Below, one piece after another: positions 2,793 to 59,277 of a stretch of 64,000 nucleotides of DNA; position 1 is the stretch's first letter; each line of letters opens with the position of its first letter. Both the position numbers and the translations under genes were made by a program. Origin of the DNA: Craspedostauros australis (Eukaryota > Bacillariophyta > Bacillariophyceae > Mastogloiales > Achnanthaceae); assembly GCA_026770025.1 (NCBI GenBank), contig JAMXDE010000004.1, positions 868,001-932,000 of the forward strand, read 5' to 3'. The notes under the pieces are model-generated. The model was not told the DNA's origin, did no database searches, and saw nothing but the letters and a program-made list of their open reading frames with translations.

Positions 2793-2813
2793 GGCAAATT
2801 TGTTCAGGGCAAC

Positions 2814-20780: not shown

Positions 20781-20794
20781 TTGGAGTGTTTGCT
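20781..20794. repeat. LINE-B target-site duplication, left copy
   Basis: TTGGAGTGTTTGCT, repeated exactly at 59264-59277. Host coding sequence reads continuously when only one copy is kept. Confidence 0.9.
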
Positions 20795-20812
20795 CATAAT
20801 ACCAGAACCCGA

Positions 20813-20821
20813 AAATCCAAA
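20813..20821. repeat. MULE 9-bp target-site duplication, left copy
   Basis: AAATCCAAA, repeated directly at 49526-49534, immediately outside the terminal inverted repeats. Nine bases is the canonical Mutator duplication length. Confidence 0.9.
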
Positions 20822-20839
20822 GAGGAAATTCATTAGGGG

Positions 20840-21526
20840 AGTTAGGATTCGAGCGTAGGCGTCGAATCGGTGGAGAATGCCTCGTGAATCTGCCGGCTTC
20901 GGGATAGCCGTGTGATGCAGTTCAAGAGAGAGGTGTGCTGGTTGAAGAGTTATAACTGTAACGATGCGTAGAAGAGTGCTTTGAAGCTAATCTTTGTCTG
21001 TGTTTATTATGAGTTAGCTTGTGGTGTTAATAGGGTGAAGAAACGATGTCACACAACTTGGTGAGACCCTGCACTGATGTACTTGGTTCAGTGCTACAGG
21101 GTATACTGTCATTACAGCGCCTTGCTCTCCACACACGTAGATACACTGCAGTGTAGATCATGGCACATAGCAGTGACGACCATGAGGCAGTGGCTGTGGT
21201 TGGAGCTGGCTCTCGGATTCCATTGCTTGAGTTGAAGCAGGTTGGATACACGCGTTAAGACTACGGCAGTGGTGCAGTAGTCATCAGCATGGAGGGAATC
21301 GAGGTATGTTGTAGTAAAAGGATCTGAGGAGCATATAGTTCCCAAGGTGGAATGTGAGTCAGGTCGGTCATGGTTGAGTCATGATGGATTCGTGAATGGA
21401 GGAGAGAAAGGAGGAGAAAAGATTTGGTGGTCGATCAGGTCGGAAGATTTCGCGCCAAAACAAGAATTTCTCCCATCAGGTTGATACCGTGTTCGGTATT
21501 AGTCTGTCCCTCATTGAATCTCAACT
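20840..21526 (-). repeat. Copia 3' LTR
   Basis: 687 bp, matching 29284-29970 at a constant offset of 8444 bases with no difference noticed. In element orientation it follows a short polypurine tract. Confidence 0.93.
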
Positions 21527-21610
21527 CTCCCTCTCAGTGTTGGGTCGTGATTGGAGTTGTGGTATCGATGAAAACTTCATCCTTCGTTGTTGTTTGTTGT
21601 TTGCTGGTTG

Positions 21611-24600
21611 TTACCAGCCCATGATTTTGGATCGTAGGTATTCGAAGACTGCGATGGACAATCCTTTGGTGAAGATGTCTGCAAGCTGCTCCGGAGTGGC
21701 GATGTGCTGGATGCAAATGAAACCTGCCTTGACCCAGTACCAAAAGAAATGCCACTTGGTCAGAAAATGCTTGGTGCGCGCGGTCGGCTGGTGATTGGTG
21801 GCTAGAGAAATGCAAGCTTGGTTGTCCTCGAAGACAGTGCACTGGAGGTTGGTGTGCAGCGGCATGTCGGTGCCGGCGTTATTGATCACTTGGCGAATGA
21901 GCTGTTGGATGGGAATCAATGTTCGCATTGCCAGGGAGAGAGCGGCGTATTCGGACTCCATTGTGGATAACGCGATCTCAGTTTGGAGTTTCGACTTCCA
22001 AATGAGAGGGCATCCACCCAATGTGATGAGATATCCCGTGCGTGATTTCACCGACACTGGATCTTTGCTGTCCTCACGTTGGTAGAGGCCTGCGAAGTCA
22101 GCGTCCACGTAGCACTTGAGATCGAGTTGCCCTGTAGGGCGAACGATGGTGCCCATGGTTTCAGTGTGCTTGAGATAGCGCATGATGCGCTTGATCGCTT
22201 TGGCATGTGATCGGCGGGGATCGTGTCCGAAGCGAGCGACTTGGGAGACTGCGAAGGCGAGATCGGGACGAGTGTTCGTCGTGAGGTAGAGCAACATTCC
22301 GACAACAGAGCGGTAGTTCCATTTCTCGTTCATGGCTGGTTCGTCCTTGCACTGTCCGAGTGCGAGTTGGGTAGTAGGTACCGGACATGGATTGCAGTTC
22401 GACATCTTCGTTGTCTCCAGGATCTTTTTGATCAATCCTGGCTGTCGGAGATGAACTACATCCGCTTTTGGATCGCGGCAGAGTTCGATCCCCAGGAACT
22501 CGGTGAAGCTGCCTTCCTGAGTGAGCTCGAACCCAAGTTCACGCATTGATGCAATGAATTCGTCGGCATCCTTCTTGGTCTTGGAGGCAATTCCTGCATC
22601 GTCAACGTAGAGAACGATCATGATGTTGCGCTTGATGAACAAGCATTGCTCTTGGTCGCAGGCTGTGAAGCCAACTGTGATTAGAGCTCGTATGAGGTGC
22701 TCGTACCACAGGCGCGGGGCGATCGTCAATCCGTAGAGACTTTTGCAAAGTCGGAGACAGGTGTTGGGTCCCTTGCTTGACTTGAAGCCGCGAGGAAGGT
22801 GAAGATGAACAGGCTTGTGGATGGAGGCCTGCACGAAGGCGTTGGTGAAGTCGATTGACGTGGTTGTCCAACCCATCACGATGGATGTGCTCAGGAAGAT
22901 GCGAACCGATGACCAGGCCACGACTGGTGCGTAGGTGGATGCATCCTCATTCATGAGGTCTCCGCGGCAACACCAGCGACCCTTGTACTTCTTGATAGTA
23001 CCATCTGGTAAGCGCTTGCGACGGAAGACCCAGGTCCCTGGGAAGATTCGATCATTGACGACGTCGGCCTTTTGAATTTCTTCCCATGTTCCCTTTTCGG
23101 TAAGTGCCTTGATTTCCTTTTCGGCTGCCTGCATCCACTCGTCCTTGTTGTCGTCGCGAATTGCTTCGTCGAAGGAAAGGGTGTCAGGGTCATTGCTGGA
23201 TGCCTTGTACGTGGATGAGCGTTCGGCGATATCCAGATCGCCACCTGTTGCGAAGTAGCTCATCATGTGTCCATCAACGTAAGTTGGGAAGTTTGTCGAG
23301 TCTCGTTGTGGTTCGATGATCGAGACAGCGTAGGCATGCTGTTCGATGTTAGCCCACTCGTGTTCTGGAATGCATGTTGCTGTGTCCAGGATGGACGATG
23401 GGTCAACTTCAAGTGTCGATCCGATTTTGTCGGAGACGCGCGTTGCTGGAGCCACCTTGAGAGGTGCTGTGTTGGTCTCGATCATCCCTTGGACAAACTT
23501 CTCGACTTCGAATGCACTTGGCTGTGGCCATGGCCCTGGACGAATCGTCGTGACTTGACGACGGAGTAGTTCGAATGCGAGACGATAGCGATGATTCTCA
23601 GAGATGGCGTTCCACACGGAGCGAGTCCTTTTGAAGAATGTGTTTCCACTGATTCTGGATTCGGGAGGAAGAAAACCCTTCATCATCAAGTATTCCGGAT
23701 CCTGATACGACCATGGCTCTGGTTTGGCCGATGACATGTAGTCAAAAGCATCGAAGCTGGGGTTCATGATGCCAGTTCGTATGAAAGCGCTCAGTCTGTT
23801 GACGAATTGGCCGACGGCGTAGTCAGTCGCTTGTCTCCTGAGGTCGTCGCAACGAATCTCGCAGTGAAGGTCGACTTCGAAGTGTCTCTCCATGTCCGCG
23901 TAGAAGTCCTCGTAGACGTCTTGGAATGGCGTTGGTCCTTCTTCGACCATGTCGTCTGGATCCGGCTGCCACCAATCGGCCATGTTGATGCTTGCTTCTT
24001 CTGCTTTAGCCGGCTTTGGGGTGAACGTTGGAAGGACGATGTTGGTTGGTTGTGGATTCAACGTATTGAATCGACCTCGAAGTCTGCGCAACAAGTAGTG
24101 AGCGTCCACCTTGAATTGATGTAGGTCGATGGAGAGAGAGTCGCTGCCTTCGCGTTGGAGAGGTTCGATTGTATGTAGGCAATCGACAATAGCTTGTGAG
24201 AATGTTATGATCGACGACGAGTCGGGGTGCAATTCCCTGGGTGTCATGGCCTGGTCAATCTCTTCCAAGGTAGCTACTGCGGGGCAGAAGTAGTAATCGT
24301 CGGTGTCCTCGTCGTCCAACCAGGCTGCTTTGCCTCCCAAACGCGCGTACGTGAATCGCTTTGGTTGTTTGCGACTTCTCGTGCTTCGAGGTCTTGATGG
24401 CGTTGACTCGGGCTTCGGCGTGGTAGTTGTCGTGGACTTAGTATCAACTGGCGTTGGAGCTAAAGGTGGTAATGGAGTTGCCTGTTCTGAAATTGGCGAC
24501 TCTCGGAGAGGTGAACTCAATTGCGGTTGAAGTGTTCGCTGATCCGGTGACTCTATAGTAGGGTCAGGTACCGGGGACTCATAGGGAGCTCCCTCTGTCG

Positions 24601-27600
24601 AAGACATTTGCTTGTTGGCTCCCTCTGAAGCTGGCATCGGAGGGGCGAGAGTTTCACTCATGAGATCCGGGATCTGTTGTGTCGTTGGCTGCGACTCTTT
24701 CGCCAATACCTGTGGCGCTCTTTCACGGATGGTTCGTTGGTTTCGCGTTTCAGTTATCGGTGGTGGAGTATTGTCGTCATTGCGTTGTAACCGGTTGTGG
24801 TCTCGCGTGTCTGATGCGAAGATGTCGTCCTGCTCCATTGATTCCACATCGTCGTCGTCGAATGGGTATTGAAAGGTGGTATCACCGAACATGCGAGTCC
24901 ATTCTTCCGATTGATAGCTTGGAAGTTGCTTCAAGTCGGTAGCAATCGTTGCGAACCAGTCATCGAATACAACATGGAACTGAGGTGTGATTGAACCTGT
25001 CCGTGGTGATAGGACCAAGGGTACGGTTGAGGCATGCTTCGTGGAGAGACCCATGTTCACGTATCTCTCTCCTCTTGGTTCCCATCGGGGTATTTTGCGC
25101 CCGTCGGCCAATGCTTTGTTAAGGACATAGACTGGACTACCCCACACGTGCAGGTTATGAAGTTGCTTGAGGGGGAGACGAATGCGTGATAGAACATCGT
25201 AAGGTGTGAGGCCTGTGGCGGGGTTAGGCACGCGATTGTAGATGTACGCGGCATGCACTACGGCCATTGGCCACAGTTGAGCGTCGAACATCGTTGGCCA
25301 ATGAATGCTTTGATGCATCATCATGGTTCGGGCCATTGATACAATTGTTCGAATGCTTCGCTCGGCGATTCCATTGTGGTGATGTGCGCCTACGCCTGCG
25401 AATCGATGGACTTGATGGAATATCTCAAGGTGTTTGGAGTATTCGGGCGAGGTGAAGGTGGTAGCGTTATCCGATAGATAGGATCGTACGGGGACCCCCA
25501 CATCACGACACATCAGTTCGAACCGTTCCTTTGCTTCGAGGGTGGCGTGCGTAGTCAGCGCTGCCACAGGTTCCACATGGATGTATCCTGATGCGTGGTC
25601 GACGAAGATGGCTCCGCCTTTGTACATTTCATTTGGGTCGCTTTTGCCTCGTCCTGAGAAGAGGCGTCCTGGCGTTCGACCGACGAAATGGTCCACTGAT
25701 ACCTGTTGTCCTGGGAACAAGTGATCGGTGCGCAGAACTCCTTGTTTGTCGCGAATGACATGTTGGGTTATTCCTGGTGAAGATCGACGATGCAGTTTTC
25801 CGAATTGACATGCGGCGCAGAGCGGGAGGCTCGTGACTTTTGCCGCAGCTGTGTGCATCTTTCTAGACGATTCTGACCCAGTGAGTGCACCCGAACGCAG
25901 CAGGAACTTCACTCGACTGAAGGATAAGTGTCCGAGACGATAGTGCCACCGAAGAAGTTCCTTTTGTGGTTGGGTGAGGTTCACGTTGTGGTCGGACACG
26001 GTAGAGACGATGGACGTTAGTGCAGCTGGCACATCATGGATGTTGTCGGCGCTGTAGCCGACGGATGTTGGCAGCCTTGTGGACTTCTTGTAGTTCGCTA
26101 CGATTGCATTGCGATCGTCGTTTCCCAGGATTCCGCTGAGTTTACAGGAGGACTTGTCGAATACGATCGTTTCGCCCTGATACTCTTCAAGGAGACTGGA
26201 TGTACTGATTAGCTTGACCTTTGATTCGGGAACATGGAAAGCAGGCAGTTGCAACTTGCGAGGGCTTCCAGTTACATCAAGGACATACCATTCGACGGTT
26301 CCCAACGCATTCACTTGGATTTTCTTGAGGAATCCGTTGAGAAAGGTCGGTTTTGGTGGAGGACTTGGAGTAGAACAGAAATCGTTGAGGTCATTTGTCA
26401 CAGAGATTGACGCTCCGCTGTCCCATACGAGTTCGAATGGAACATCAGGCGAGAGATAACTCTCAGCCTTGGCTGGGGATGCGAAAGCGTTGCGATTGGA
26501 GAAGTAGGAGGCTAGACCTTGCAGAGTGAGTAGTGCTGGCATGTCATTGTCACATTGTTGTTTTTGATTTCGATCATACATCAAGTCGATTCCGCGAGTT
26601 GGGTACAAGCTCCAGAGGTTTCGTGAGATGGATGAGGTGCGACCTTCCTGGCGGGGCAATTTTGCAGTCGTGAATGGTTGGTTTTTACCATAAGTGGAAG
26701 TTTTCGACTGGTTCCGGTAACGACGTTTTGATCTGTGATTGCGAGTTTTGGTCCGAGTTTGGGGACGCCACACACGTTTTGTTCGTGGGGAGTTCACTTT
26801 CGACACGTTCACAGTTTTGGGTCCATCTGGGTCAAGGCTTTCCATCACGAGATCGTAGAGACTGCGTTTCACAGCTCCATTGAAATGTGTGGGACGTTTG
26901 TGCACTTGCTTGAACCGTTCCTTGACTCGTGCCTTGTTATAGGCTAAATCAGTAGAGTTGATTAAGTTGGGTCTTCGTGGAACGTTCGTGTGCAGGAGGA
27001 GTAGAGTTACGGCGATTAGCATCCAGGCATTAGCTGCCACGATGTACCACCCATACTCTACTCCGATGGTGATGACTTGGAGTGAAGCGAAGAGGAGAAC
27101 CGTTCCAACGATGCTACCGAAGTAGTTGAAAGAGGTGCAGAGGTTCCATATGAGGGACCACCAGGTGTCTTCGTCTTGGCTGGAGGCGGCTGTGAAGCAT
27201 GTCCAGGCAGCCATGTCGATGGAGAGGTTTTCTTGTTTGGGAACGTTCTTGCCCTTTGCCTTCGCCTTGAACTTGAAGTTGTCCTGGTGGCTCTCGGTGT
27301 TGTGCGAGAGACGCCAGCATCGGCACTTGGCGCACCACATGAACGTCTTGTCGTTGACAAGCTTGCGCTGTGGTTCACCGGGCTTGGGAGCTTTGGACGA
27401 CCAGCCCTGGCCGGCGTTGCGTTTGGCGTCGCGTTCCTTGGGCTTCTTGGAGTTGTTCCTCTTTCCGTCGTTCTTGGAGAAACCCTTGTGTTGCTCGAGG
27501 ACGTTGGCGCTTGGGTTTTGGGCGACGTTGCTAGCGTACGAGTACTTGGGCACGTTGCTGTCTCTGGTACGCCTGATGGCATGCCAGCGATTTCCACGCA

Positions 27601-28855
27601 CTTCGTTTTCGTACGACGCCTCGGCCTTGTTGCAGATTGCCATCCATGTGAGATCTTTTGCGGCAAGCTGGGGGCGAGCGTACTCGTATGTGAAGACGGG
27701 GAGACGCATGAGGATTTCCTCAAGGCTATCCTTCATCACATAGAGAGGACGTCGGTACTGTTCACCAGACCGGATCTGTCCTCCAGCCTGTAGGAAGGCA
27801 TCGAGGATCGTTCGGAGGAGACGGAGGTCGAAGCGACCGGCGTCGTCGAGGCGCTTGCAAAGAGCACGGAGGTGGACTGCCATGAGTCCAACGTTCTCGT
27901 TTGGAAAACGTCTGCAGTTGACTTCGCGGATCTTGGCTGCGAGGGCGTCTTGTTCATCCAAGGAGTTGGCTGAGTTGCTGTTCATGAACTCAACGAAGAG
28001 AGTGATGAAGTTATCGTGGAACTTCGGCTCAATTCGGTTCATGAGCTGGTCTTCGAGGATTGGATCAAGACTGTCACGGAAGAACGCTGAGGCTGTCTCG
28101 TTGTTCTGGACGTCGTAGTGATCCCACTTCAGATGGAACTCTTCAAAGTGCTTGGTGGCATCTTCAAGAGTGAAGGCGGCTGGTGAATCCAGGACGCAAG
28201 TCATCCCTGACTCTGCGTTGGCGTCAGCAATGTACGCCATGGTGAGGAGTCCGGTTCTTGCCATGTGATTTCGCACCAGGCGGATGAACTGCTGGATGTT
28301 CCCTCCCTTCTTGAACTTGTCGGTGAGTCCTTGCTCTCGCTTGGACTGGTTGGTGGAGTCAGCACCGTTATGGAGGATTCTCTGTTGTTGAGAGTTAGTC
28401 CACCTGGTGTGTGACTCGTCTTGGAGGCCGGTCCAATGTCCGTTTGGTGCGCCTGCGGTCCAGGGCACCCAGTTGCGTCCTTGCTTGAGGATACCTCCCA
28501 TGATGGGAACGGTTGGTTTCCCTGAGAGGTCGTGGTCGTCGTCTTCGCTATCCTCTTCTGACTTTCTGCTCTTCTTGGGCATGGGAGTTCCCATGTCGAA
28601 GATACTGTCGTTGAGGAAGGACTGGTCCGTCCGGGTTCTTGTGTCGCCAGCGGAACGGCTGCGCTCGAGACCGGGACGGCTTGGGGTCGTAGTGGCTGTA
28701 GCTGCTGCTTGGGCAGTGGCTATAGCCGCATTTGCTGCTTCTGCAGCGGCTTCGGCCGCCAACGTCGCCTGTGTGAGGCGGGCGTTTTCGACCGTGATCG
28801 CTTCGAGCTGCGCTTGCAGCTCTTCCAGCGTGGCAGGGGTTGTCTCTTCCGCCAT
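21611..28855 (-). CDS. Copia Gag-Pol polyprotein
   Basis: 2414 codons in Copia order: Gag with a Cys/His knuckle (CAKCRCWRLSHNTESH, about residue 505), a strongly hydrophobic segment of about 45 residues (about 570-630), aspartic protease (VWDSGAS, about 805), GAG-pre-integrase (HYRLGHLS), integrase catalytic core (about 1050-1170, including SDNATTF and NGIAERS), a long Pro/Ser/Thr-rich linker, reverse transcriptase (DFTNAFVQA and LYVDDAG, about 2000-2085) and RNase H (YVDADFAG, STMESEYAAL). The integrase-before-RT order makes it Copia rather than Gypsy. Treated as a mobile-element relic; no host role is implied. Confidence 0.93.
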   Translation of the reverse strand: MAEETTPATLEELQAQLEAITVENARLTQATLAAEAAAEAANAAIATAQAAATATTTPSRPGLERSRSAGDTRTRTDQSFLNDSIFDMGTPMPKKSRKSEEDSEDDDHDLSGKPTVPIMGGILKQGRNWVPWTAGAPNGHWTGLQDESHTRWTNSQQQRILHNGADSTNQSKREQGLTDKFKKGGNIQQFIRLVRNHMARTGLLTMAYIADANAESGMTCVLDSPAAFTLEDATKHFEEFHLKWDHYDVQNNETASAFFRDSLDPILEDQLMNRIEPKFHDNFITLFVEFMNSNSANSLDEQDALAAKIREVNCRRFPNENVGLMAVHLRALCKRLDDAGRFDLRLLRTILDAFLQAGGQIRSGEQYRRPLYVMKDSLEEILMRLPVFTYEYARPQLAAKDLTWMAICNKAEASYENEVRGNRWHAIRRTRDSNVPKYSYASNVAQNPSANVLEQHKGFSKNDGKRNNSKKPKERDAKRNAGQGWSSKAPKPGEPQRKLVNDKTFMWCAKCRCWRLSHNTESHQDNFKFKAKAKGKNVPKQENLSIDMAAWTCFTAASSQDEDTWWSLIWNLCTSFNYFGSIVGTVLLFASLQVITIGVEYGWYIVAANAWMLIAVTLLLLHTNVPRRPNLINSTDLAYNKARVKERFKQVHKRPTHFNGAVKRSLYDLVMESLDPDGPKTVNVSKVNSPRTKRVWRPQTRTKTRNHRSKRRYRNQSKTSTYGKNQPFTTAKLPRQEGRTSSISRNLWSLYPTRGIDLMYDRNQKQQCDNDMPALLTLQGLASYFSNRNAFASPAKAESYLSPDVPFELVWDSGASISVTNDLNDFCSTPSPPPKPTFLNGFLKKIQVNALGTVEWYVLDVTGSPRKLQLPAFHVPESKVKLISTSSLLEEYQGETIVFDKSSCKLSGILGNDDRNAIVANYKKSTRLPTSVGYSADNIHDVPAALTSIVSTVSDHNVNLTQPQKELLRWHYRLGHLSFSRVKFLLRSGALTGSESSRKMHTAAAKVTSLPLCAACQFGKLHRRSSPGITQHVIRDKQGVLRTDHLFPGQQVSVDHFVGRTPGRLFSGRGKSDPNEMYKGGAIFVDHASGYIHVEPVAALTTHATLEAKERFELMCRDVGVPVRSYLSDNATTFTSPEYSKHLEIFHQVHRFAGVGAHHHNGIAERSIRTIVSMARTMMMHQSIHWPTMFDAQLWPMAVVHAAYIYNRVPNPATGLTPYDVLSRIRLPLKQLHNLHVWGSPVYVLNKALADGRKIPRWEPRGERYVNMGLSTKHASTVPLVLSPRTGSITPQFHVVFDDWFATIATDLKQLPSYQSEEWTRMFGDTTFQYPFDDDDVESMEQDDIFASDTRDHNRLQRNDDNTPPPITETRNQRTIRERAPQVLAKESQPTTQQIPDLMSETLAPPMPASEGANKQMSSTEGAPYESPVPDPTIESPDQRTLQPQLSSPLRESPISEQATPLPPLAPTPVDTKSTTTTTPKPESTPSRPRSTRSRKQPKRFTYARLGGKAAWLDDEDTDDYYFCPAVATLEEIDQAMTPRELHPDSSSIITFSQAIVDCLHTIEPLQREGSDSLSIDLHQFKVDAHYLLRRLRGRFNTLNPQPTNIVLPTFTPKPAKAEEASINMADWWQPDPDDMVEEGPTPFQDVYEDFYADMERHFEVDLHCEIRCDDLRRQATDYAVGQFVNRLSAFIRTGIMNPSFDAFDYMSSAKPEPWSYQDPEYLMMKGFLPPESRISGNTFFKRTRSVWNAISENHRYRLAFELLRRQVTTIRPGPWPQPSAFEVEKFVQGMIETNTAPLKVAPATRVSDKIGSTLEVDPSSILDTATCIPEHEWANIEQHAYAVSIIEPQRDSTNFPTYVDGHMMSYFATGGDLDIAERSSTYKASSNDPDTLSFDEAIRDDNKDEWMQAAEKEIKALTEKGTWEEIQKADVVNDRIFPGTWVFRRKRLPDGTIKKYKGRWCCRGDLMNEDASTYAPVVAWSSVRIFLSTSIVMGWTTTSIDFTNAFVQASIHKPVHLHLPRGFKSSKGPNTCLRLCKSLYGLTIAPRLWYEHLIRALITVGFTACDQEQCLFIKRNIMIVLYVDDAGIASKTKKDADEFIASMRELGFELTQEGSFTEFLGIELCRDPKADVVHLRQPGLIKKILETTKMSNCNPCPVPTTQLALGQCKDEPAMNEKWNYRSVVGMLLYLTTNTRPDLAFAVSQVARFGHDPRRSHAKAIKRIMRYLKHTETMGTIVRPTGQLDLKCYVDADFAGLYQREDSKDPVSVKSRTGYLITLGGCPLIWKSKLQTEIALSTMESEYAALSLAMRTLIPIQQLIRQVINNAGTDMPLHTNLQCTVFEDNQACISLATNHQPTARTKHFLTKWHFFWYWVKAGFICIQHIATPEQLADIFTKGLSIAVFEYLRSKIMGW

Positions 28856-29283
28856 GATGGATAGCAGGGACTTCTCGAGTAGTCTTCGGACGTCGAGGGG
28901 ATCGATCTGTTTACCTTCTCTTGCTCTTGCTCGACTTCACTTCGTTGAGAAGGTGTGCACTGAAGTTCGATGCAGGTTTTGAGAGGCTCGTACTCGGTCA
29001 GCGAGTATGGTTATAGCTTGCTTTAGCAGAGGCTACTGAAGTTCGACCTTGGGTCGCTTACCTTCAGCTGGGACTTTTGTCCTCTTGAGTGGCTCGGTTT
29101 TCGAGCGTTGGGTGTCTGATTTCAAATCAGATGCATGCGATGAGGACTGTGTCCTTTGTTGAAAGCTCGGTCTGCGAGCTGTGCCTTTTGGCTTGGTCTC
29201 AGAGAGACTCTTGCGATCGGTTGGCAGAGGAAGATGCTCGGTGGAGTTGATTTGAGAGTATTTGGCAACCACTCGCAGCTACC

Positions 29284-29970
29284 AGTTAGGATTCGAGCGT
29301 AGGCGTCGAATCGGTGGAGAATGCCTCGTGAATCTGCCGGCTTCGGGATAGCCGTGTGATGCAGTTCAAGAGAGAGGTGTGCTGGTTGAAGAGTTATAAC
29401 TGTAACGATGCGTAGAAGAGTGCTTTGAAGCTAATCTTTGTCTGTGTTTATTATGAGTTAGCTTGTGGTGTTAATAGGGTGAAGAAACGATGTCACACAA
29501 CTTGGTGAGACCCTGCACTGATGTACTTGGTTCAGTGCTACAGGGTATACTGTCATTACAGCGCCTTGCTCTCCACACACGTAGATACACTGCAGTGTAG
29601 ATCATGGCACATAGCAGTGACGACCATGAGGCAGTGGCTGTGGTTGGAGCTGGCTCTCGGATTCCATTGCTTGAGTTGAAGCAGGTTGGATACACGCGTT
29701 AAGACTACGGCAGTGGTGCAGTAGTCATCAGCATGGAGGGAATCGAGGTATGTTGTAGTAAAAGGATCTGAGGAGCATATAGTTCCCAAGGTGGAATGTG
29801 AGTCAGGTCGGTCATGGTTGAGTCATGATGGATTCGTGAATGGAGGAGAGAAAGGAGGAGAAAAGATTTGGTGGTCGATCAGGTCGGAAGATTTCGCGCC
29901 AAAACAAGAATTTCTCCCATCAGGTTGATACCGTGTTCGGTATTAGTCTGTCCCTCATTGAATCTCAACT
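29284..29970 (-). repeat. Copia 5' LTR
   Basis: 687 bp, the partner of 20840-21526. Its promoter would read leftward into the Gag-Pol frame. The base pairs just inside it (29264-29283) are where a tRNA primer site is expected. Confidence 0.93.
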
Positions 29971-31077
29971 AGGGGGATATCGCATTTCACATTGCGAGTC
30001 CCACGGTACAAAATAACCTGATAATGACATTTTTAGAGGGGCAACATGCGAACTTCCCCCTCGGAAAGTGAAACTCGATTGCGTTTTAGGAGCCAAAAAC
30101 ACAATTGAGTTTCACATTGCAGTCCCGGCAATCCAACCTTCCACGTGTTGGAACGAAACGAATGGCCAATCATTTCTCTTCATTTGCAGCAATGTTGAGT
30201 CGTCCTTGTCGTGCTGATGATAGTTTTTATGAGATGCTAATGATGATGAAACTAGCATTCCGAATGAGGGGTGCATGGAGCGATAGAGAGTGATTGCGAT
30301 GTCGAATATGCTTGTAAGCTTCACATATGATATCTGCGCGCAAGTATCAAAGGCCCCCTTCATGATACAGCTGAGGAATCTTTGCTCATATCCTATTTCA
30401 CCCGATGCAACATCCGCGGCGTGTTCCTGATGCTCTGAGGATTAGTGTAGTCAGATACGACCAGGGACTTCGACCAACGGACATTTTGCATCCTTTGGAG
30501 ATCCTGAATGCCATATCAGAAGTCGTTGGTGGTCTCCAATCACCCCAACATGAAATCGCAATAGTTCTGTGTAGACTGCGTGAAGAGCTTCTATTGGACA
30601 ACAAACTGCTGGTCTATCTCCATAATACGGTGATCAAGAGGTCTCTGCCATCGACATTGGCAACAGAGCCTTGAACAAGCCGTGAATTAGCAGGGACAAA
30701 GTGCTTGCGCATCTGTTGCCGGACCTCTGTTGGTGGCAAAGTTGAGACAGAAGAGATGGCAACGAACCTCTCACAACACGAAACTCCTAAGAGGAGAAAG
30801 AGGGATGTGTGTTGCGTACAACTCAGAGCACACCCATTAACGATCCTACCATCCTTTGGTCTCAACAAGTGATGCGATAACCTGCAACGAAGCATTCAGA
30901 TCATATCAGTCTAAACTCGAACTATATTCTACAGAAGAGAAGCCGATTCAGTCATATTGGTCGTCTTTCTGTGTAGGTCACGAACGAGTCACGAGTACCA
31001 ATGTGAAATCCGAACGTGAGTGCCACATGTGACATGAATGGAGGGGTGTGAATGTGAAATGCGATATCCCTCTATTA

Positions 31078-31434: not shown

Positions 31435-33430
31435 ATATTCCATCTAAACAAGACCAGCGAATCGAAAGCATTCCAATCGGTATACTACCAGCTTGCGAGT
31501 GTCTATAGCCATCTGGAAGGTGTCACAGATCACATGCTGTCATATCACGGCTTACGCCACGGTGACTGTGTACTTCACAAAGAACTTCGACCAAACCTTC
31601 ATCTGAAAGATCCAATACATCAAAATTTGCAAGCATCATCACAGCAACCGCGCGAAAGTGGGTACAGTGGGTGGATTACAAGGATCATTAACATTCTGGA
31701 AGGGGTGCCCCTATCCAAATCCATGATTCGAGTGATGCTGTGCGGAACACATCTCGTTGCACAGAACTTCGAACATGCGTGCATAGAAAATGTCAACCGG
31801 AATCCAAACCAACCCGGCGCCCACTTCCAACACACTCCAAAGGATCTGGTCACGAAGTATGAGGTCTCCAATCCATCTGGAAGGGAGTCAAATCTGAGAA
31901 TCTAGATATCGAGTGGTGTTGTGGGTGACAGTACTGTGACCTACGCACCATACTGTGCAGTAGATTGCCCATATGTGTCAGGAATCGTGTGTTCTGAAAC
32001 ACCATATTGCCGCACCTCCCAAGAGTAAGGAGCCGAACGTCGTGATATTCTACATTACCGCAACTCCCACGTTTGATCATTGTGACACAGAAAAATGTGA
32101 GCTGCACGTAACTCGCGGTGGAGAACGCCACGTGCCAAATGCGAACCATACCTTGACGTTCATGACTCCAATGCAGGAATGCGAATCACATATGTATGTC
32201 GCAGGGGGCAGGGATGTTGGAATCGTGACCAACATCACGACATGAGTAACTACGGCCCCCATGTCGCAACCAATGAGAAAAGAGTACTGGAGGAAGGCCG
32301 ATGTCACGAAGTGTGAGATGGCCTGTGAACGAACCTGAGATGAGGAACATCCAGGAAGCCGGTGAAGTGATCGGCGAAGAAACAATCAGAAACGACAGGA
32401 GAAGCATCGGAGATGATCGGAGATGGTCGGAGATGTGAGATGGTCGAGGAGCTGAATGAGCTCCCAACCAAGGTGTTTCCGTGACGAGTGGGAGACCGTG
32501 ATCTGATGGAATGAACCGATCTGTGTGATGCCTACGACTCGGCGATGTCTAAGGCATCGAAACTATCAGCGGAGGACAACGTGCTTGTGTGCACGAACAT
32601 GGGGTACTCGGTGGTGCTTGCATGTCCATGATGAATTTGCGATGAATGCAAGATGGATGCCTGCTAGACCAACAGAGGAACCCATGGTGATCTCAGAAGG
32701 AGATCAGACTTTGAAGTTGAGAGCAATGAAGAGCTCACAGTTCAGAGAAGTAGATTCTAACAAACGATTAGCTTTCTACTATCACACCACCCCGGATTTC
32801 CAACACATATGTGCATATAAAATGTCAATCACAATCAAATCCAACCTGGCGCGCACTTACAACACACCCCAAAGTGTCTGGTCACGAAGTATGAGGTCTC
32901 CAGTCCATCTGGAAGGTAGTCAAATCTGAGAATCTAGATTTCGAGTGGTGCTGTGGGTGGTAGTACTGTGACCTACACACAATACTGTGCAGTAGATTGC
33001 CCATATGTGCATATAAAATGTCAATCACAATCAAATCGAACCTGGTGGGAACTTACAACACACCCCAAAGTGTCTGGTCACGAAGTATGAGGTCTCCAAT
33101 CTGTCAGGAATGTATCCGTGTGGAAGGATCAGTCTAGCCTGATGCCAAGGTCACCGTGCGGCCTCACAAGGCACCGCTCGAAATCTAGATTCTCAGATAT
33201 CCGTAAGGAAAATTTTGTGTGGGCGTTTTCGTAAATGTCCTGAGGAGGACATTTATCGCTTCCTGTCGATGTTTTTCCCACAACTGTCCTGAGGAGGACA
33301 GATAAATTATCTGTCCTCCTGAGGACATTTAATTTTGGCGTTTGACTGGCTGGAACACGTATCCACGACACAAATTATGAGTGTCGCGACAATTCATCGC
33401 GTTGTTGGCTGGCGCCATCTGCTTCGTTCT
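31435..33430. repeat. MULE left subterminal array of 196-bp repeats and palindromes
   Basis: Copies of a unit of about 196 bp (landmarks CATATGTGCATATAAAATG, GGTCACGAAGTATGAGG, GAATCTAGAT) run from about 31790, are interrupted by a solo LTR, and resume at 32806-33190. More diverged copies seem to extend outward to 31435. From 33236 to 33330 come three palindromes of the GTCCTC/GAGGAC type, then about 100 bp shared with the right arm. The whole stretch is an inverted counterpart of 36470-37265. Confidence 0.75.
31976..32805 (-). mobile_element. Solo LTR, family 1, in MULE repeat array
   Basis: 830 bp beginning TGTCAGGAATC and ending GGATTTCCAACA, so the ends are TG...CA with short inverted termini. 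Flanked by a 6-bp duplication CATATG (31970-31975, 32806-32811). It is the inverted counterpart of the copy at 56300-57089. No internal coding region; a fossil. Confidence 0.82.
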
Positions 33431-33826
33431 TTTCTGTGCGCTTGTTCTGGGTGTTAGCGCACCTCCACTTGCATCGCGGTACTTGCTTGTTCTAGTTTTG
33501 TCTCCTGCGTCAACAAAACCATGCTAATGTGTGTCTACTGTCCGACAAGCTTGGCTACGTCTATTTTACAGTCTTTTCTTAGCGGATGCTTTGCGTTTGT
33601 TTTTACCTTGTCTTCCACTGCAACTACGTTCTACCCCATTTGCAATTCTTTCTTTCATTCGAGTTTCCGCCGCATCTCTCCATTATACTGCCAATGCAGA
33701 TTTCTAATGTATCTCTCTCTCTCTTTCGAGGTGGCTGTTTTGTTCAGACCTTTTCTTGTTGATTGTTGCAGCTGCTGTATCCGTTCTTTCATCTTTGTCT
33801 TCGTCATTGCTGCTATCATGCTTGTC
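33431..33826. other. MULE interior, no gene seen
   Basis: About 400 bp between the left repeat arm and the 3' end of the second MULE gene. T-rich on the plus strand, with no supportable frame. Confidence 0.45.
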
Positions 33827-35655
33827 TCACTCTATGTTCGTAAACAATTCGGTGGACTCCGTCCTCGCGACTCGGGGAGGATGTCCATCATGGTCGCTGT
33901 GGTATTCCCTGTCACCGCAATCTGAATCTTGTTGGGAGACAGTGATTGCGGAATCGCTGTCACTTCCGTTTCTGTTTCGGTTGCAACTGCCACTGCCACT
34001 GCCACTGCCATCGTGGTTGTTGTTGCCATCGCAGTGGCTGTTGATGTTGCCATTGCTATTGCCGCTGACAGTGCCATTGCTGGTGTGGTAGTTTTGGAAC
34101 ATGAGGTCCGCAAGAGACCTCATATCAGCAGAGAGCCTATCTTGGGTGTAGCGCAACTGAGAAGTTTCTTGCTCCACGCTGTCACGATCCTCCTCCTAGC
34201 GGTGGCATGTATCGCGCATTTTCTGTTGCTGATTCAACATGTGCTGGATGAATTGGCTGTTGTTGCTGTTGTTGTTATTGTCATTGCTACTGTCCCTGTC
34301 CTTGCTGCCATTTCTGTTGCCATTGCCATTGCCGCTATTGTGGATGTGTGCGCTTGCCTCCACAGCTGGTACTGAAAGGGGGGAAGCAGACCAGACCACC
34401 ATGATTGGATGAAGTCCGGCTTGGGTGGGAGCAGGAGGCATTGCCACATGCAGCCAATCTGCGAGTTTGTTTCGATTTTGTTCAGCCTGTTGAGGAGGCT
34501 TGCAGTGTTCTGCATCTTCTGTTCCATACTCACGCGTGGCTTCTTCTCAGGCTTCGTTGTGGTGGATGACATGCAGAAAGATGAGGCATTCTCTTCATTT
34601 CCTGCTGCCTTCTGTTTGCGCGCGGCTTTGCCAGCCTATTCCTTTGATATTGCAGGGCGCAGGGCGAGCATGTGGGACCTTTGCTTGTTGGTGATGCTAT
34701 TGCATCCTTGAATTCTTTGCTCCAAGGTGACACAATCCTTGGCGTAGTCCTTGCGCTCCTGTATCAGGTTGGTGAGCTCATTGAGCCACTGCTTCATATT
34801 CTCCGTCATGCCGCTGCAGCAAGGGGTGCGCTTCAGGAGAGTTTTGGTGAGCTCCAGGAAGTTTTTGAATCGGTTGGCCAATGCAGACTCTTGTGGCATA
34901 TTCGGAAACACCGTGGAGTTCTGCTGGTGTAGTTCGTTGCAGATGATTGTCCATGCTGTGCCAATGAGTGGTATCCATGGCTGGTTTGGAAGCCTGATCA
35001 TCACATTCATGGGGATTCCGTTGCATGGTTGTGGTATGTGCAGCCAAGGCAAGCAGTCCACCTTTCCCTTCAGTTTGTAGTACATTGGAGGGAAATGCTA
35101 TGCGGCCTTGCCAACAGTGGTGGTGGGATCAGGCCATGAAGTGGGCTGATTACTGTTGCTACCAACCATCACAATTTTGAAGACTGAGGTAGGAGGAGCT
35201 GGTGGCTTCTTGCAATGGCATGCCCTCTTATTGTTCGTCTGGTCCGTAGATGGCGGTGTTGTGCAGGGTAAGCCATCAGTGACAGACATGGTGCGGGATT
35301 CGTTGCTGTTGCATTCCGTGTAGGCAACACCTGCGTCCTGAGGAGACTGCACCAACATGAATACATTGGGACACCATGTGATGGTTGGTGGCTGCTTCAC
35401 ATTGTCGGCATAGGAAGGTGGTTGTATTGTGCAAGTGGATGGTGCGGGAGACTGCGCTGCAGTCCCATCAGGATGGTCACTGTTGTTGTTGAGGCGAGGG
35501 GTGGAGAGATAATCGAAAGGATGGGATGGATCTGTGATGATCGGGAGACGATACGGATGTGTTGTGTGTGTGTGATGATGTGAGATTATTATGGAGACTC
35601 TGATTGTCTCCGCAGAGACTGTGAACATGGGATTTGCTGCTGCTCCGTCTGTCAT
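33827..35655 (-). pseudogene. Second MULE gene, decayed, possible SANT/trihelix-like protein
   Basis: Reading from the ATG at 35655 the frame is open except for TAG at 35098-35100 and again at 34636-34638, each followed by in-frame continuation. A one-base shift occurs near 34440-34500, and the continuing frame has a third TAG at 34196-34198 before a stop at 33827. The N-terminal part is Pro/Ser/Thr-rich. About 150 residues in the middle (TAWTIICNELHQ ... LANRFKNFLELTKTLL ... WLNELTNLIQERKDYAKD) have the tryptophan/helix spacing of a trihelix or SANT-like DNA-binding module followed by coil. The C-terminal part is Gln/Asn/Ser-rich with Asn-Gly repeats. It may be an accessory gene of the transposon. 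I do not recognise a precise family. All three stops are TAG, as expected if CAG codons were deaminated. Confidence 0.55.
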
Positions 35656-38895: not shown

Positions 38896-38901
38896 ACTAG
38901 T

Positions 38902-44622: not shown

Positions 44623-47418
44623 CTAACCCTTCTCCGGGTCACCTTGCGGTTCCCCGTTCCCTTCATTGTCGTGCACCTCGTCCTGGTTGTCGCCCATTCT
44701 GATGGCTGGTGTATCGCACTGGACCGTCGGTGGTCTTACATCCGTCCGTTCTTGCACTTCTTGCCTCTCGGACCTGAGTCTTGCATTCTCCTCATTCGTT
44801 GATATCAACATTCTTTGCATCTCCTCCATCTGTCTCTGCATCGATGCCATCATCGCCCTTGTCGTTCCCGTTGTTCGGCCTGTGCTTCCCGAGAGTGTCG
44901 ATGTTACTGACCCTTGTGCTCTCGCTTCCAGGATTTTCCCCATCTGTTCTTGCAGCATCACCACTTTCTCTCTTTGTGTTCCTGTGGTCTGTCTGCTTCC
45001 TTCTGTGATAGATGATGCTACCGAAGCCTCCTCCTCCTTCTTCTTCTGTGCTTTCTTTCTTTGTGCTGTCTTCGTCTCCTTGATTTTTCGCCATGCTTTC
45101 TTATCCCTCATGGATGGAATAGTATCCTCTTCTCCGTAGTCTTTCTCTTTTCTGACGTTGCTCTCGAATCTCTCCTCCTCCTTGTCGCTGGACTCTTCCT
45201 GTGTCTTGTCTGTCACGAAATGCATGTCCTCGTCTATGGTCATCGCGGCTTCGACCTCTTTGTCTTTTTCCGAGATCACTCTCTTGGTCTCTTCATCCCA
45301 TCGCATCGTCCTTGATTCCACTCGGGCCATTGAAGTGAATACTCGTTCCACGTCACTCCCGTAATCAGCAGTCAGTTTGACCAGCAGTCCTTTCACCACC
45401 AATCTGACTTCCGCTGCTTTGTCCGGGTGAAATTGGAACACGTAACCGTTTCCTCTCCACTGCTTGTCCACCGAGGTGAACAGAGGCGTTCGAACGTTGC
45501 CTGAAGTCGACTTGATTCTCATGATCATCTCCCGAAGTGTTAGGTGCGATCCTTCTGGGATCTCCTGCAGGCACTCTGGGATGATGTCGTATGTTGTCAT
45601 TGCGACCACGTTCAGGCACCATTCCATCTGCCGTTCTCTCAACTCAAACCACCCTTTCCTCATGTCGGTATTGACGATTCCTGAGAGAGGTGTGATGATC
45701 CGCATTCGTACCCCCAGTGGGAACTTCTTCGCCTGTGTGCTGTAGTACACTTCGAGTACCTTCGCCACCAAAGCTCTGTCTTCTGTGCTTGACTCCACGT
45801 GTAACTCCCGGGGATCTTTCTTTGTATCCCGGTTCGGGTCGTACTTCTCACCATCCGAGATCCGTTTCCACGTGATTGCGACCTGTGTCTTCGCGAGCTT
45901 GGTGAGCTCTTCTTCCAGGGCATCTGCGTCAATCTGTCGTGTGGAGTACAGCAACCAACCAAGCGTCGTTGTGGATGGTGCCTGGATTTTGGCTACTTCA
46001 AATCTTCCTCCCACGTGTTGGAAGTAGTCAGTCAGCTCCGTTGTGATTTTGCTGATCTGCCCTTTTGCTTTGATCTTCACCTTCAGGTATCCTTTCTCTT
46101 GTGCTACCTTGTAGATCGGTCGTACGCCTTTGAAGAATTTCTTCAGGTTGGTCATGTCGGTGGGGAATGACTCCATGGCGTGGACGATAGTCTGATCTTC
46201 ATAGGGATTCCATGGGATAAGCTTTGCTGTTGCATTCACTCTTTGAATCGATTGTAGAAACTCCTTGCATGACGCAATGGCCGCGTCGATCACCGTTCCT
46301 GCATCGTTTGCCCCGTCTCCTCCTTCGATCATCATCTGTACATCGCAGTACCTCGTCTCCACCGCCTCGTCGCGACCCGTTCGTCTCCAGTTCAAGCCGC
46401 TTTCGTTGCTGCCTGCCTGTGTGGCATTGTCACAGTCCATGCTTTCTTCCGGTTTGTGGGGTTCTGGCTCTTTCTCCTGTTGTGCCTCGTCTCCCCTGCT
46501 GCCGATTGCGTTCTCCTTTGGTCCTTCTTGCTCCTTGTTCTCTCTGTCGTCGTCTTGTTTGGCTTCCTCTGCTTCCTTCTCTTCTCCCATTCTACGCAGG
46601 TCCGTCCTTTTGTGTGGTTGTTCCTCTTGCATCGCGTGTCGTGGGCTCCTCGCCGTCCTCTTCTTGTTCCCTCCTGCTGCACCTCCTTTCTCTTGTTGCG
46701 CGTCTCCTCCTCCTCCTTTTGTAGTCTCTTCCCATTCGTCGGCCCATTCGTTCTCATCTTCACTGCTGTCGTCAGCTCCCTCTACATCCCTCTTCTTCTC
46801 CCCCGTCTTGTCTCGTGTTTCTGCCCCTGTGCCCTCGTCCTCGTTGTTTGCTGTCGGTTCCTGTACCCGCGCTGCCTTCTCACTCTCTTCTCCTTGCTTT
46901 TCTCCATCATCCTTTGCCATGCCTTCATCGTTGCCTTTCGCGTTCTTCATCTTTCCCCACTTCTTGCTCAGTGCTCTTCGGATGGCGTCTTCCGATGACC
47001 CCATGTATTGCTGTCCTGTTTTTTCTTCTTGGACGTTGATGCCTTCTTTTGCGATGCATTGTTTGTAGACCACCGGGAACCCTCTCGGTGTTGTCAGCCC
47101 TTCCTCTGGCCTGATCCATGCCCTGCACTCTCTGTGTGCCGGATCTCCACACGCGATGCATCTGACTGCCGCTGCTGCCCTTCCTCTTCCCTTGCAATAC
47201 TTCCCTGCTGCGCACTCGACCTTTCGTGCTCCTCTCCCTTGTTTCCCATCGTTCTCGCCCGTCTCTTTCCCGATTCTTCTTCTGCTCAATCCATCTTGCG
47301 CCTCTCCCTCTCTTCTCTCTGCTCCTGTTGTTTTGTTGTTGTTGATTGCTCCTCGGACATATGCTTCCATCGGCATTTGGCCCGACGGTCTCGTCATCTT
47401 GCTCCTCGGTGTCGTCAT
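44623..47418 (-). CDS. LINE-A ORF1 protein
   Basis: 931 residues. Near the N-terminus is a Cys/His cluster (CAAGKYCKGRG ... RCIACGDPAHREC) resembling a PHD or zinc-ribbon unit. A long Glu/Lys-rich disordered region follows, then a globular middle (about residues 400-700: VRPIYKVAQEKGYLKVKIKA, KFPLGVRMRIITPLSG) and a C-terminal coiled coil (MMASMQRQMEEMQRML, NEENARLRSERQ). LINE ORF1 proteins bind the element RNA and form trimers or multimers; this one is inferred to do so. LINE-B ORF1 has the same plan: globular middle, then a terminal coiled coil. No frameshift seen. Confidence 0.82.
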   Translation of the reverse strand: MTTPRSKMTRPSGQMPMEAYVRGAINNNKTTGAERREGEAQDGLSRRRIGKETGENDGKQGRGARKVECAAGKYCKGRGRAAAAVRCIACGDPAHRECRAWIRPEEGLTTPRGFPVVYKQCIAKEGINVQEEKTGQQYMGSSEDAIRRALSKKWGKMKNAKGNDEGMAKDDGEKQGEESEKAARVQEPTANNEDEGTGAETRDKTGEKKRDVEGADDSSEDENEWADEWEETTKGGGGDAQQEKGGAAGGNKKRTARSPRHAMQEEQPHKRTDLRRMGEEKEAEEAKQDDDRENKEQEGPKENAIGSRGDEAQQEKEPEPHKPEESMDCDNATQAGSNESGLNWRRTGRDEAVETRYCDVQMMIEGGDGANDAGTVIDAAIASCKEFLQSIQRVNATAKLIPWNPYEDQTIVHAMESFPTDMTNLKKFFKGVRPIYKVAQEKGYLKVKIKAKGQISKITTELTDYFQHVGGRFEVAKIQAPSTTTLGWLLYSTRQIDADALEEELTKLAKTQVAITWKRISDGEKYDPNRDTKKDPRELHVESSTEDRALVAKVLEVYYSTQAKKFPLGVRMRIITPLSGIVNTDMRKGWFELRERQMEWCLNVVAMTTYDIIPECLQEIPEGSHLTLREMIMRIKSTSGNVRTPLFTSVDKQWRGNGYVFQFHPDKAAEVRLVVKGLLVKLTADYGSDVERVFTSMARVESRTMRWDEETKRVISEKDKEVEAAMTIDEDMHFVTDKTQEESSDKEEERFESNVRKEKDYGEEDTIPSMRDKKAWRKIKETKTAQRKKAQKKKEEEASVASSITEGSRQTTGTQREKVVMLQEQMGKILEARAQGSVTSTLSGSTGRTTGTTRAMMASMQRQMEEMQRMLISTNEENARLRSERQEVQERTDVRPPTVQCDTPAIRMGDNQDEVHDNEGNGEPQGDPEKG

Positions 47419-47555
47419 CGTTGGTTCGTTGTTTTACTAGTTATTTTTGCTGTCTGTTGTCTTTCTTTGATTTGTTTATTCGTGTTTGTTTGCTGCGACA
47501 ATTTCTTCCGGAAGTTTGGTTCCTTTTGGAAATTGTGGAGACAGGGTCTCTTGTA

Positions 47556-56299: not shown

Positions 56300-57089
56300 T
56301 GTTGGAAATCCGGGGTGGTGTTAGTAGTAGGAGACTAATCGTTATTAGAATCTACTCTTTCGAACTGTGAGCTCTTCATTGCTCTTTCATCTTGATGATC
56401 GATCACCTGCTGCAATCCCCATGGTTGCATCTGCTGGTCTACCATGCATTCGTCTTGCAAGGTTGCCCATCTTGTGAATTCACCCTGTCTTTCTTCTGTT
56501 AGATTCATCATCGTAGACATCGTTGATTCACAGGCGTTACCGATTCGATTCACTCAGTCGGATCATCATCTTCGTGTTTTTCACAAAACACAAGAGACAC
56601 AACTGTTCTCACGGTTGAACCGTTGTTCTCACGATTTCTCACACGATGTCTCGTGTTGAGGCAGCCATCCCTTATCACTTTCCTTTTGCTGGTCCGTTAC
56701 CAGCTTCATCCATTATCACCGGAGAGTTCTCTCACGGTCCTTTTTGTACTTCGTGGTAATGGGATATTCCGACTCCTCGGTTCTTCGTTCGTCATTACAT
56801 GAGGGCTGTATTCGCTTGTACCTGATGATGGTCACGAATGCATCATTGCAGCCACGTGTGACATGCAACCGTGCATTGGATGATTGTATTACCCTTCACA
56901 GTCATCATTCGATCCACACTTGCCATTCACCATTTGTCTCAGGATACCATTCGCCCTGTCACGTACCTCACATTTTGGTGTTCACAATGTCACAGTGGGA
57001 GGTGCGGTAATATAGTGTTTCATGACATTTGTCTCCTCACTCTTGGGAGGTGCGGCAATCACGCGTTTCATAACACCCGATTCCTGACA
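56300..57089 (+). mobile_element. Solo LTR, family 1, in LINE-B RNase H
   Basis: 790 bp from TGTTGGAAATCC to ATTCCTGACA, flanked by the 6-bp duplication AGCGAC (56294-56299, 57090-57095). It matches the inverted copy at 31976-32805 at both ends. No internal coding region remains; a fossil. Confidence 0.85.
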
Positions 57090-57095
57090 AGCGAC

Positions 57096-57266
57096 GGATC
57101 TGTTGCGGAAGGTCGAGGAGCAGCGGGAGCTGTTATTCACGCCGTCCAGGCGGACCAAGTGGCGCGGCTCTGGCTCGCTAACAGAACTCCAGCCACCAAC
57201 GAAGTGATGCAATCACATTGTGCGGAACTCGCCGGAATCTATGGTGTGCTTGTGATCATCGAGGCC
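57096..57266 (+). pseudogene. LINE-B ORF2, RNase H middle piece
   Basis: 57 codons between two solo LTRs, reading GSVAEGRGAAGAVIHAVQAD ... QSHCAELAGIYGVLVIIEA. It carries the RNase H catalytic glutamate region (HCAELAGI). It joins 56299 on one side and 57839 on the other. Confidence 0.8.
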
Positions 57267-57832
57267 TGTTGGAAGGCTCCGCGCACGGAGAATCGGTAGT
57301 AGTCACACTCTTTGTCGAAAGTGTTTCTGTTACTGTTACTGTTGTTGCTATTGATTGTTGGTGAGCGAGCGTGGGGTATGAGATGATCAAGATGCTCTCT
57401 TGATCCATCTCTTCCTTGCTCTCATTGCTTGGTGCAATCCTCTTGCACCTCCATGCACATTGCTCTCATGTTGCTCGTTGATGTTGACTTGATCGTCAAC
57501 CTCGTCGTTTCTCTCTCGTTGTCTCGTCGTTGTTCCATTCTCGGGTTTTGTTGAATCTGATGATTGATCGAATCTGACGGAATATTCACAACATATTTCA
57601 TTCCTGTAGACCTGGTAGTTAAGGTCTCGATGTGACGTCACGTGTGATGGATACTGTGGTATCCGCTGGTATCGCGGTATCGTGGCGTCGTAGTATCGCG
57701 GTGTCTTCGTGGTATAGCGATGGTATCGCTGTGACGTCATAGTTTTGTGTCGTGATTCCGCCACCGAATAGTCTAGATGGCGGCAAGCAAGTGTGACTGA
57801 TGCATACACATCCGAGTACACACATTCCGACA
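57267..57832 (+). mobile_element. Solo LTR, family 2, in LINE-B RNase H
   Basis: 566 bp from TGTTGGAAGGC to ATTCCGACA, flanked by the 6-bp duplication GAGGCC (57261-57266, 57833-57838). Termini resemble family 1, but the interior differs. Orientation was not established independently. A fossil without internal genes. Confidence 0.8.
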
Positions 57833-57838
57833 GAGGCC

Positions 57839-59013
57839 ATCTGCAATGCATGCCAAGTGACGCAAGGCTCGATGATACTAGGGTGCGATAACGTCGGCGC
57901 GCTCAAGGCGCTCGACGGTGCATGGCATCTGTCCCCGCGATCCTCGGACGCCGATTTGCAGAGAGCGGTTCGAAACCTCAGTCAGAGTCTCCCAGTTACC
58001 GTAACAGGCAAGCATGTCAAAGGGCATCAGGACGCAACGACAGAATGGGCCGTTCTCGACGACTGGGCCTTCTCAACGTCGAGGCGGACAAGCTCGCAGG
58101 CTCGGCGCGCACGTCTCTTTCGGAGGAGTGCGTCTATAGCGGAGCTATACATGGCGAGCGAGTGTCCATTCATGGCAGGTCGAAGTTGACGTCGATTCGA
58201 TATGACAGCATCTTTGGAGCGACCACCGCAAGCTCTGCAATCGTTACTTTGGCGGAGCGGAAAGTCATCAACCAAGGGGATCAAGTCCTTTGGGATGCGG
58301 TGGCAGGAGGTCTCCGGTCTCTGGAACACGCCAAGCGCATTCTCACTTTCAAACTAGTGACAGGAGAGGCAGCAACAGGCCAACGCATGAAGCGGTGGGG
58401 CCTGCGCGACTCCAATAAGTGTCCCAATTGTGGGGAACCGGAGAGCAGCGCTCACTTCTGGGAATGCAAGGACCCCGTCCGAGTCCAGGCGGCCAGCCGG
58501 CATGTCAAGGATATCCGGAGTTGGATGCAGCGATACCCCACCAGCCCGGGGGTCTCGCACGCCATCGTCTCGACGCTACGCAGTCAAATCAGAGGAACAG
58601 TTCTATTGCAGTCAGCAGACATGAGTGTCGGAATGCAAGCGGCGACTCAGAGTCAAGCATCAGTGGGACGCATGGCCCTTCGGAAGGGCTTGCTGTCCAC
58701 CACATGGCGAGAGCTGCAAAACGCCTTCTTGGCGCAACAGGATACAAGAAAGACGGCCAAAAAGTGGTCTATACAGTTGGTTCGACGCATATGGAAAATA
58801 GCATGGGAACAATGGCAGATACGCAACGAGGCGTTATTTCATCAAGATGACTCGGCCGACGCCGAAATGGAGCAAGTGCTGCGAACACGCGTGGCTTCAA
58901 TCCGGCATCGCCTTGAGGGATCCCCAGTCAGCAACCAACGAATCATCAGCACCTCCCCAGGAGCAAGCGCGTCAGTGCCGCAAACCGCAGTGTGGCTAGA
59001 ACAGGCTGCTTGA
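57839..59013 (+). pseudogene. LINE-B ORF2, RNase H end and C-terminal finger
   Basis: Begins with ICNACQVTQGSMILGCDNVG and KHVKGHQDATTEWAVLDDW, the end of RNase H. A one-base change at about 58068-58075 then moves the frame to LLNVEADKLAG. The rest is continuous to 59013: tether region, CPNCGEPESSAHFWEC finger, and a helical tail with WKIAWEQWQIRNEALFH shared with LINE-A. The protein ends WLEQAA. Confidence 0.82.
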
Positions 59014-59263
59014 TTGCTAGGCAAGCCAGCTGCCCACGGCACGCTGAGTCGCTGGCTACGGTACAAGCAGCAAGTTCAACCAGCCCACCCGGACGGCTAA
59101 CGGCGACGCGGCAACCTGCACAATGGAGCCAGCATACATATACAAACAGCAACGTAGATTCCGTGCTCTCTTCCCGCCTGGCAGGAAGATTAAAGGAGGC
59201 AGAGAAAAGCACCTACGGCGCAGATGCCACAGTGGTAATCTAATCCTTGCGTTATTTATTTAT
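59014..59263 (+). other. LINE-B 3' UTR and tail
   Basis: 250 bp from the ORF2 stop to the TTTA-type tail that abuts the right copy of the 14-bp duplication (59264-59277). No further frame. Confidence 0.75.
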
Positions 59264-59277
59264 TTGGAGTGTTTGCT
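59264..59277. repeat. LINE-B target-site duplication, right copy
   Basis: TTGGAGTGTTTGCT, identical to 20781-20794. On the minus strand it encodes the SKHSK codons of the split host gene. Confidence 0.9.

Follow-up and report, generated by a model that had tools for sequence, protein, structure and literature searches.

The window analysed here, a stretch of 64,000 nucleotides, contains a minus-strand coding exon that is split by a nest of transposable elements, and this raises the question of whose gene was hit. The original prediction was that the exon belonged to the host and that the nest implied either a null allele or a dispensable gene. Our analysis gives a different answer, which we hold with high confidence: a PIF/Harbinger-like element, called H in what follows, inserted at a CTG near the end of the host gene RPAC2 and then served as a landing pad for other elements, and the supposed host exon is an exon of the accessory gene of H. 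The nest itself is ordinary and its container had been misread; such modest interest as the locus has attaches chiefly to the displaced 3' end of RPAC2.

The nest is bounded by a 14-bp duplication and has empty sites elsewhere in the genome

The sequence TTGGAGTGTTTGCT is present at 20781-20794 and at 59264-59277, with no third match in the window at up to one mismatch. In the shuffle control the mean number of matches was 0.03, and two matches were found in 0 of 100 shuffles. When one 14-bp copy was deleted, the minus-strand frame read ...SSRFAASN-SKHSKTKSKAHKKKRK with no shift at the junction. Both flanks were contiguous in five close relatives at other genomic positions (L029-L033), their overlap being exactly 14 bp; the empty sites with a single 14-bp copy lie in H copies on C6, C12, C9, C3 and C52. 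This alignment is a direct empty-site control for the nest insertion. The shuffles and the five relatives bear out the prediction that a nest of 38,469 bp is bounded by a 14-bp duplication, and the frame is, as predicted, uninterrupted at the junction after removal of one copy. That the exon runs straight on was right only there: compared with the five aligned relatives, exon 3 of the window copy has 2 extra nucleotides about 70 nt beyond the junction and its frame reaches a stop 74 codons beyond it. Because of these 2 extra nucleotides, the exon has a frameshift as well as an insertion.

The split exon belongs to a multicopy element with inverted repeats

The joined protein of the split exon was searched against the source genome (74.8 Mb, 90 contigs), which gave 87 rows of matches. 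Exon 2 matched with at least 73% identity at 14 loci, the window's included, and all 13 of the other loci also matched the exon that follows, at 51-88% identity over query residues of about 257-320, spanning the junction near residue 290. The two halves, which might have come from different genes, are parts of one gene, though a transposon's. Copy-to-copy alignments extended over about 6 kb in close pairs and ended abruptly at inverted repeats, GGAGGCGCGGTAAT. In a scan of 16 loci for these repeats both ends were found in 13, as GGAGGCGCGGTAAT or variants with at most two changes; both ends were not shown in L031, L039 and L043. Among these 13, the 3-bp target duplications on the two sides agreed in 12, the window copy included. 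They were CTG or CAG in 11 and CGG in one, and the remaining copy (L032) had unequal flanks (CTG/CAG). The other end of the C9 copy (L031), fetched later, revealed a CTG target duplication.

On the strand opposite the accessory gene we detected a match to DDE_Tnp_4 (PF13359), which we take to be the Pfam family of PIF/Harbinger transposases, with an E-value of 1.6e-8, above the curated cut-off (L029 1193-2452, minus strand); the transposase open frame opposite the accessory gene is 419 aa long. H was thus found to have the features of the PHIS superfamily, namely a DDE transposase, short inverted repeats at both ends and two genes, and it is a two-gene PIF/Harbinger-like (PHIS) DNA transposon of about 6 kb.

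H lies within the last codons of RPAC2

Since the split exon is part of H and not of the host, the nest implies no null allele of a host gene. A host exon was hit elsewhere: the outer H starts at 19928, within the last codons of RPAC2 (19477-19953, plus strand, stop at 19951-19953). RPAC2 (AC19) is a subunit common to RNA polymerases I and III. The plus-strand open frame 19093-19953 carries the Rpb11-type dimerisation domain (Pfam RNA_pol_L_2, E 6.3e-27), and a PDB search with this frame gave E 1.7e-19 for RPAC2 versus 3.5e-11 for RPB11. One RPAC2 copy was found in the assembly, the sole other genome match being closest to RPB11.

At the occupied site the RPAC2 frame reads ...DGDVAG-RRGNAMC*, with the last codons and the stop coming from the terminal sequence of H. 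When the flanks were joined and one CTG was kept, the empty-site reading was ...DGDVAG-DNMED*, an end that is read from one assembly. As read at this reconstructed empty site, H is inserted five codons before the RPAC2 stop. The chance of meeting a stop within the first six random codons is roughly 25% by arithmetic. Since it left the conserved domain of RPAC2 whole, the insertion was probably tolerated; the 3' flank of the gene now lies 52 kb away. Close to the site the tail is acidic, of low complexity and unaligned to the PDB relatives, as might be expected if H lay just behind RPAC2, outside its coding sequence, for example with a native C-terminus reached by splicing before the site. We consider this unlikely, since the frame is open from the conserved domain into the inverted repeat, with no stop before H, and the empty site closes with DNMED*.

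The 2 kb to the left of H (17900-19927) had genome matches to themselves only, and farther to the left in the window lie a gene for tubulin and two open frames encoding DNA-binding domains of the HSF type (1392-3113 and 10850-12484). A minisatellite of about 5 kb starts about 50 bp to the right of H (L045 8110 to about C2:945243) and, in a search skipping very common words, had matches at this place only. The composite is thus situated at a gene, at the very end of RPAC2, in seemingly gene-rich sequence.

The second gene of H is paired with the transposase and under purifying selection

We then compared the positions of the accessory gene (ORF2) and of the transposase across the genome. For the pairing test 69 of the 87 ORF2 rows were used, leaving out 15 exon-3 pieces (the window's two included) and three other fragments, together with the best 80 of 100 transposase rows. 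Among these best 80, a divergent transposase match lay upstream within 15 kb in 61 of the 69 ORF2-like loci and within 6 kb in 56, where about 0.3% would be expected for random places; the remaining eight loci had no match among these rows within 15 kb. The head-to-head pairing was also observed in many ORF2 relatives of only 27-31% identity, and the spacings between ORF2 and transposase cluster by family. In exon 2 of ORF2 the dN/dS ratio was 0.13-0.33 among six H copies, the identical C6 and C12 copies giving no ratio, and ORF2 is thus under purifying selection between H copies. The transposase pairing and the dN/dS values together indicate that ORF2 is a selected, transposon-borne second gene.

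All 15 loci L029-L043 contain exon 1 of ORF2 (MAKPKRW...), which in L039 has stop codons. Exons 1, 2 and 3 gave nothing above the curated cut-off in Pfam, whether for Myb/SANT or any other family, and comparison of the ORF2 protein with the PDB gave no convincing relative; the matches in these searches were weak (E 0.05-0.25). The single-sequence structure prediction for exon 2 had a pLDDT of 31, too low to be informative about the fold. According to the excerpted text of PMC9179366, the second proteins of PIF/Harbinger elements are far more divergent than the transposases.

The many copies, some of them just 27-31% identical, might also suggest a host multigene family spread by segmental duplication, from which a transposon had only captured a gene. 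This is very improbable, as the similarity stops at the inverted repeats in copy after copy while the flanks differ, and even distant relatives are paired head-to-head with a transposase, the distance between the two genes again grouping by family.

Four insertions interrupt the H copy of the window

The H copy of the window extends from 19928 to 64000 and on to 72055 (L045 8055), a length of 52,128 bp with its insertions, and is flanked by CTG. ORF2 is on the minus strand and the transposase on the plus strand, beyond the window. The right end, with its inverted repeat, was located at 72055, and the same end structure is present in the C9 copy. To the left of the nest, the fragment 19928-20794 (minus strand) contains the inverted repeat, the 3' part of ORF2 exon 3 and the left 14-bp copy. 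To its right, the fragment 59264-60646 (minus strand) holds the start of exon 3, intron 2, exon 2, intron 1 and part of exon 1. Exon 1 is interrupted by solo LTR 4 (60647-61164, 6-bp CTCTTT duplication) and by an inverted-repeat element (61245-64000, on to 68495, 2-bp TA duplication), and a small insertion of about 180 bp is found near 71099-71275. There are hence four insertion sites, of which the nest is one; the three further insertions fall outside the region covered by the original prediction. Three of the four sites (the nest, solo LTR 4 and the TA element) are in coding exons of ORF2, and together with the 2 extra nucleotides in exon 3 they show that this accessory gene has been disrupted.

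The transposase of this copy is open in two exons separated by a 112-bp GT...AG intron, so not both genes of the copy have been lost. A frameshift in the transposase was considered and ruled out, as the second apparent break is the intron and the first lies before the likely start. The terminal 1 kb or so of the copy resembles a different H subfamily, so the window H could be two fused copies, but the same arrangement in the C9 copy (93-95%) argues against this. H copies are mosaics, the transposase-side end existing in two strongly different versions exchanged between subfamilies; the region concerned spans 70980-72055 by window numbering (L045 6980-8055), and L052 covers it in the C9 copy.

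All of these junctions come from a single assembly, and unrelated pieces might have been joined in it. Such an artefact is scarcely credible, since the junctions given here and below with a duplication have matching copies of it (the probable element at 33199-36673 excepted) and the H fragments to the left and right of the inserts resemble the same relatives to a similar degree. Least probable of all is the original reading of a host gene exon split by the nest, with a null allele or a dispensable gene as its consequence: the 14-bp duplication and the continuous frame at the junction speak for it, and the exons and introns and the purifying selection do look gene-like, but we reject it because the gene recurs at many unrelated places, each time with a paired transposase in most cases and within sharply ending inverted repeats flanked by target duplications.

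A proposed history of the locus

The preferred history, in which H became a landing pad within RPAC2, may be pictured as follows. H landed at the CTG site five codons before the RPAC2 stop, duplicating the CTG, as the site itself shows. Its terminal sequence supplied an in-frame stop at the eighth codon on, whereby the conserved domain of RPAC2 was kept, and an insertion at the end of this gene would be tolerated. Thereafter the H copy would act as a neutral landing pad, with elements inserting into H and into each other, stretching it from about 6 kb to 52.1 kb and reaching greatest depth in the series LINE-B, MULE, MITE and Copia. The mechanism would be that elements insert again and again into an H copy able to do without its own accessory gene, presumably because other copies exist, and the nest would require no function. 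A further reading is held more tentatively, and we lean slightly against it: the sole RPAC2 found may be a working allele that takes its stop, its last seven residues and its 3' UTR from the inverted-repeat end of an H of 52 kb with eleven named insertions (one only probable), and the second protein of H may be an accessory factor that lacks the Myb/SANT fold seen in related elements.

The result removes a false host-gene knockout. It also illustrates a pitfall, in that the second gene of a two-gene transposon, with its introns and purifying selection, mimics a host exon and is unmasked by copy number, inverted repeats and transposase pairing. In the locus one can follow, step by step, how an insertion tolerated at the extreme end of a conserved gene goes on to receive many others, and it offers a testable case of a transposon-supplied 3' end in an RNA polymerase subunit.

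Comparison of H with known systems

Eukaryotic nested transposable elements, with elements inside elements ordered by their target duplications, are ordinary. The nest studied here is of the same kind, except that its outermost element lies in the end of a conserved gene. H resembles PIF/Harbinger elements, as described in the excerpts of PMC4482050 and PMC9179366, in its DDE transposase, its inverted repeats and its second gene, which encodes a DNA-binding protein in known members. It differs from them, within the same excerpts, in having CNG instead of AT-rich target duplications and a second gene without a recognised domain. PIF-Harbinger is listed for a diatom genome in PMC7466962. The excerpt of PMC4482050 describes the NuwaI group of the PHIS superfamily as two-gene elements that duplicate CWG, encode Myb/SANT in their second protein and occur mainly in animals. 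H shares with this group, so described, the DDE transposase, the two genes and the 3-bp CWG target duplication, whereas its host is alga-like and its second protein has no Myb/SANT match by sequence. Since the Myb/SANT feature was not found and the agreement is one of transposase type, gene number and target, we call H NuwaI-like and not a member of NuwaI. Light-harvesting genes were found, and the one compared matches LHCI and fucoxanthin chlorophyll a/c proteins, so that the host is plausibly a chlorophyll a/c alga and perhaps a diatom. If the host is an alga, a CWG-targeting PHIS element would extend this type beyond the mainly animal range given in that excerpt.

Layers of the nest

The longest chain, H, LINE-B, MULE, MITE and Copia, is five elements deep, and 12 elements counting H were named (one only probable), in addition to the small insertion near 71.1 kb. 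The predicted insertion order of LINE-B, MULE, MITE and Copia was confirmed, a target-site duplication being found for each step. The predicted nest agreed with ours in boundaries and order, and lacked a probable inverted-repeat element inside the MULE.

LINE-B, with all inner insertions, occupies 20795-59263 on the plus strand, between the 14-bp duplications and with a (TTTA)n tail at 59263. A relative on C4 (L047), which shows 81-83% identity in its long stretches, is without the MULE and solo LTRs 2 and 3, which are inserted in LINE-B at 56300-57089 (plus strand, 6-bp AGCGAC duplication) and 57267-57832 (plus strand, 6-bp GAGGCC duplication). The MULE (20822-49525, minus strand) has a transposase domain (PF10551), long inverted repeats (361 bp, 99% alike) and a 9-bp target duplication, AAATCCAAA, all features of this class. 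An uninterrupted relative (L046), whose long stretches beyond the repeat array show 93-96% identity, is without LINE-A, solo LTR 1, the MITE and the element at 33199-36673. LINE-A (37970-47533, minus strand) has a 22-bp duplication and open frames of 931 and 1672 aa, and solo LTR 1 (31976-32805, minus strand) a 6-bp CATATG duplication. The probable inverted-repeat element, at about 33199-36673 in the centre of the MULE repeat array, has arms of about 240 bp that are 81% alike, with no clear target duplication at its ends. The MULE also contains inverted arrays of 196-bp tandem units (36670-37278 and 31779-33198), and a longer array is present in L046.

The MITE-like element (20835-31073) is inserted in the left inverted repeat of the MULE with a 3-bp ATT duplication and contains the Copia element. 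Its inverted repeats begin with AG. A relative of this MITE is held by the C9 copy of H (L031 7948-9052), in the transposase-gene part, with an AGT duplication. The Pangu group of PHIS has ANT target duplications according to the excerpt of PMC4482050, and the MITE is like it, as far as the termini compared go: ATT here and AGT for the C9 relative both fit ANT, and the inverted repeats start with AG. The Copia element (20840-29970, minus strand) was recognised by its RVT_2 reverse transcriptase (E 1.3e-36), its LTR pair (20840-21526 and 29284-29970, identical over 687 bp) and its 5-bp AGGGG duplication, and has an open frame of 2414 aa. Its innermost position makes it the most recent member of the chain.

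In each of solo LTRs 1 and 2, which are related, a 15-bp motif resembling the inverted repeat of H occurs twice (32006-32068 and 56997-57059). We considered on the basis of the motif ATTRCCGCACCTCCC whether these two elements could be H-derived MITEs, and ruled this out, as they start with TG, end with CA and have 6-bp duplications. Apart from one weak 39-bp match, they did not align to the compared H copies. At up to three mismatches the window contains eight matches to the H-repeat-like motif, four of them in solo LTRs 1 and 2, versus 1.06 expected, and the motif may be a shared binding site.
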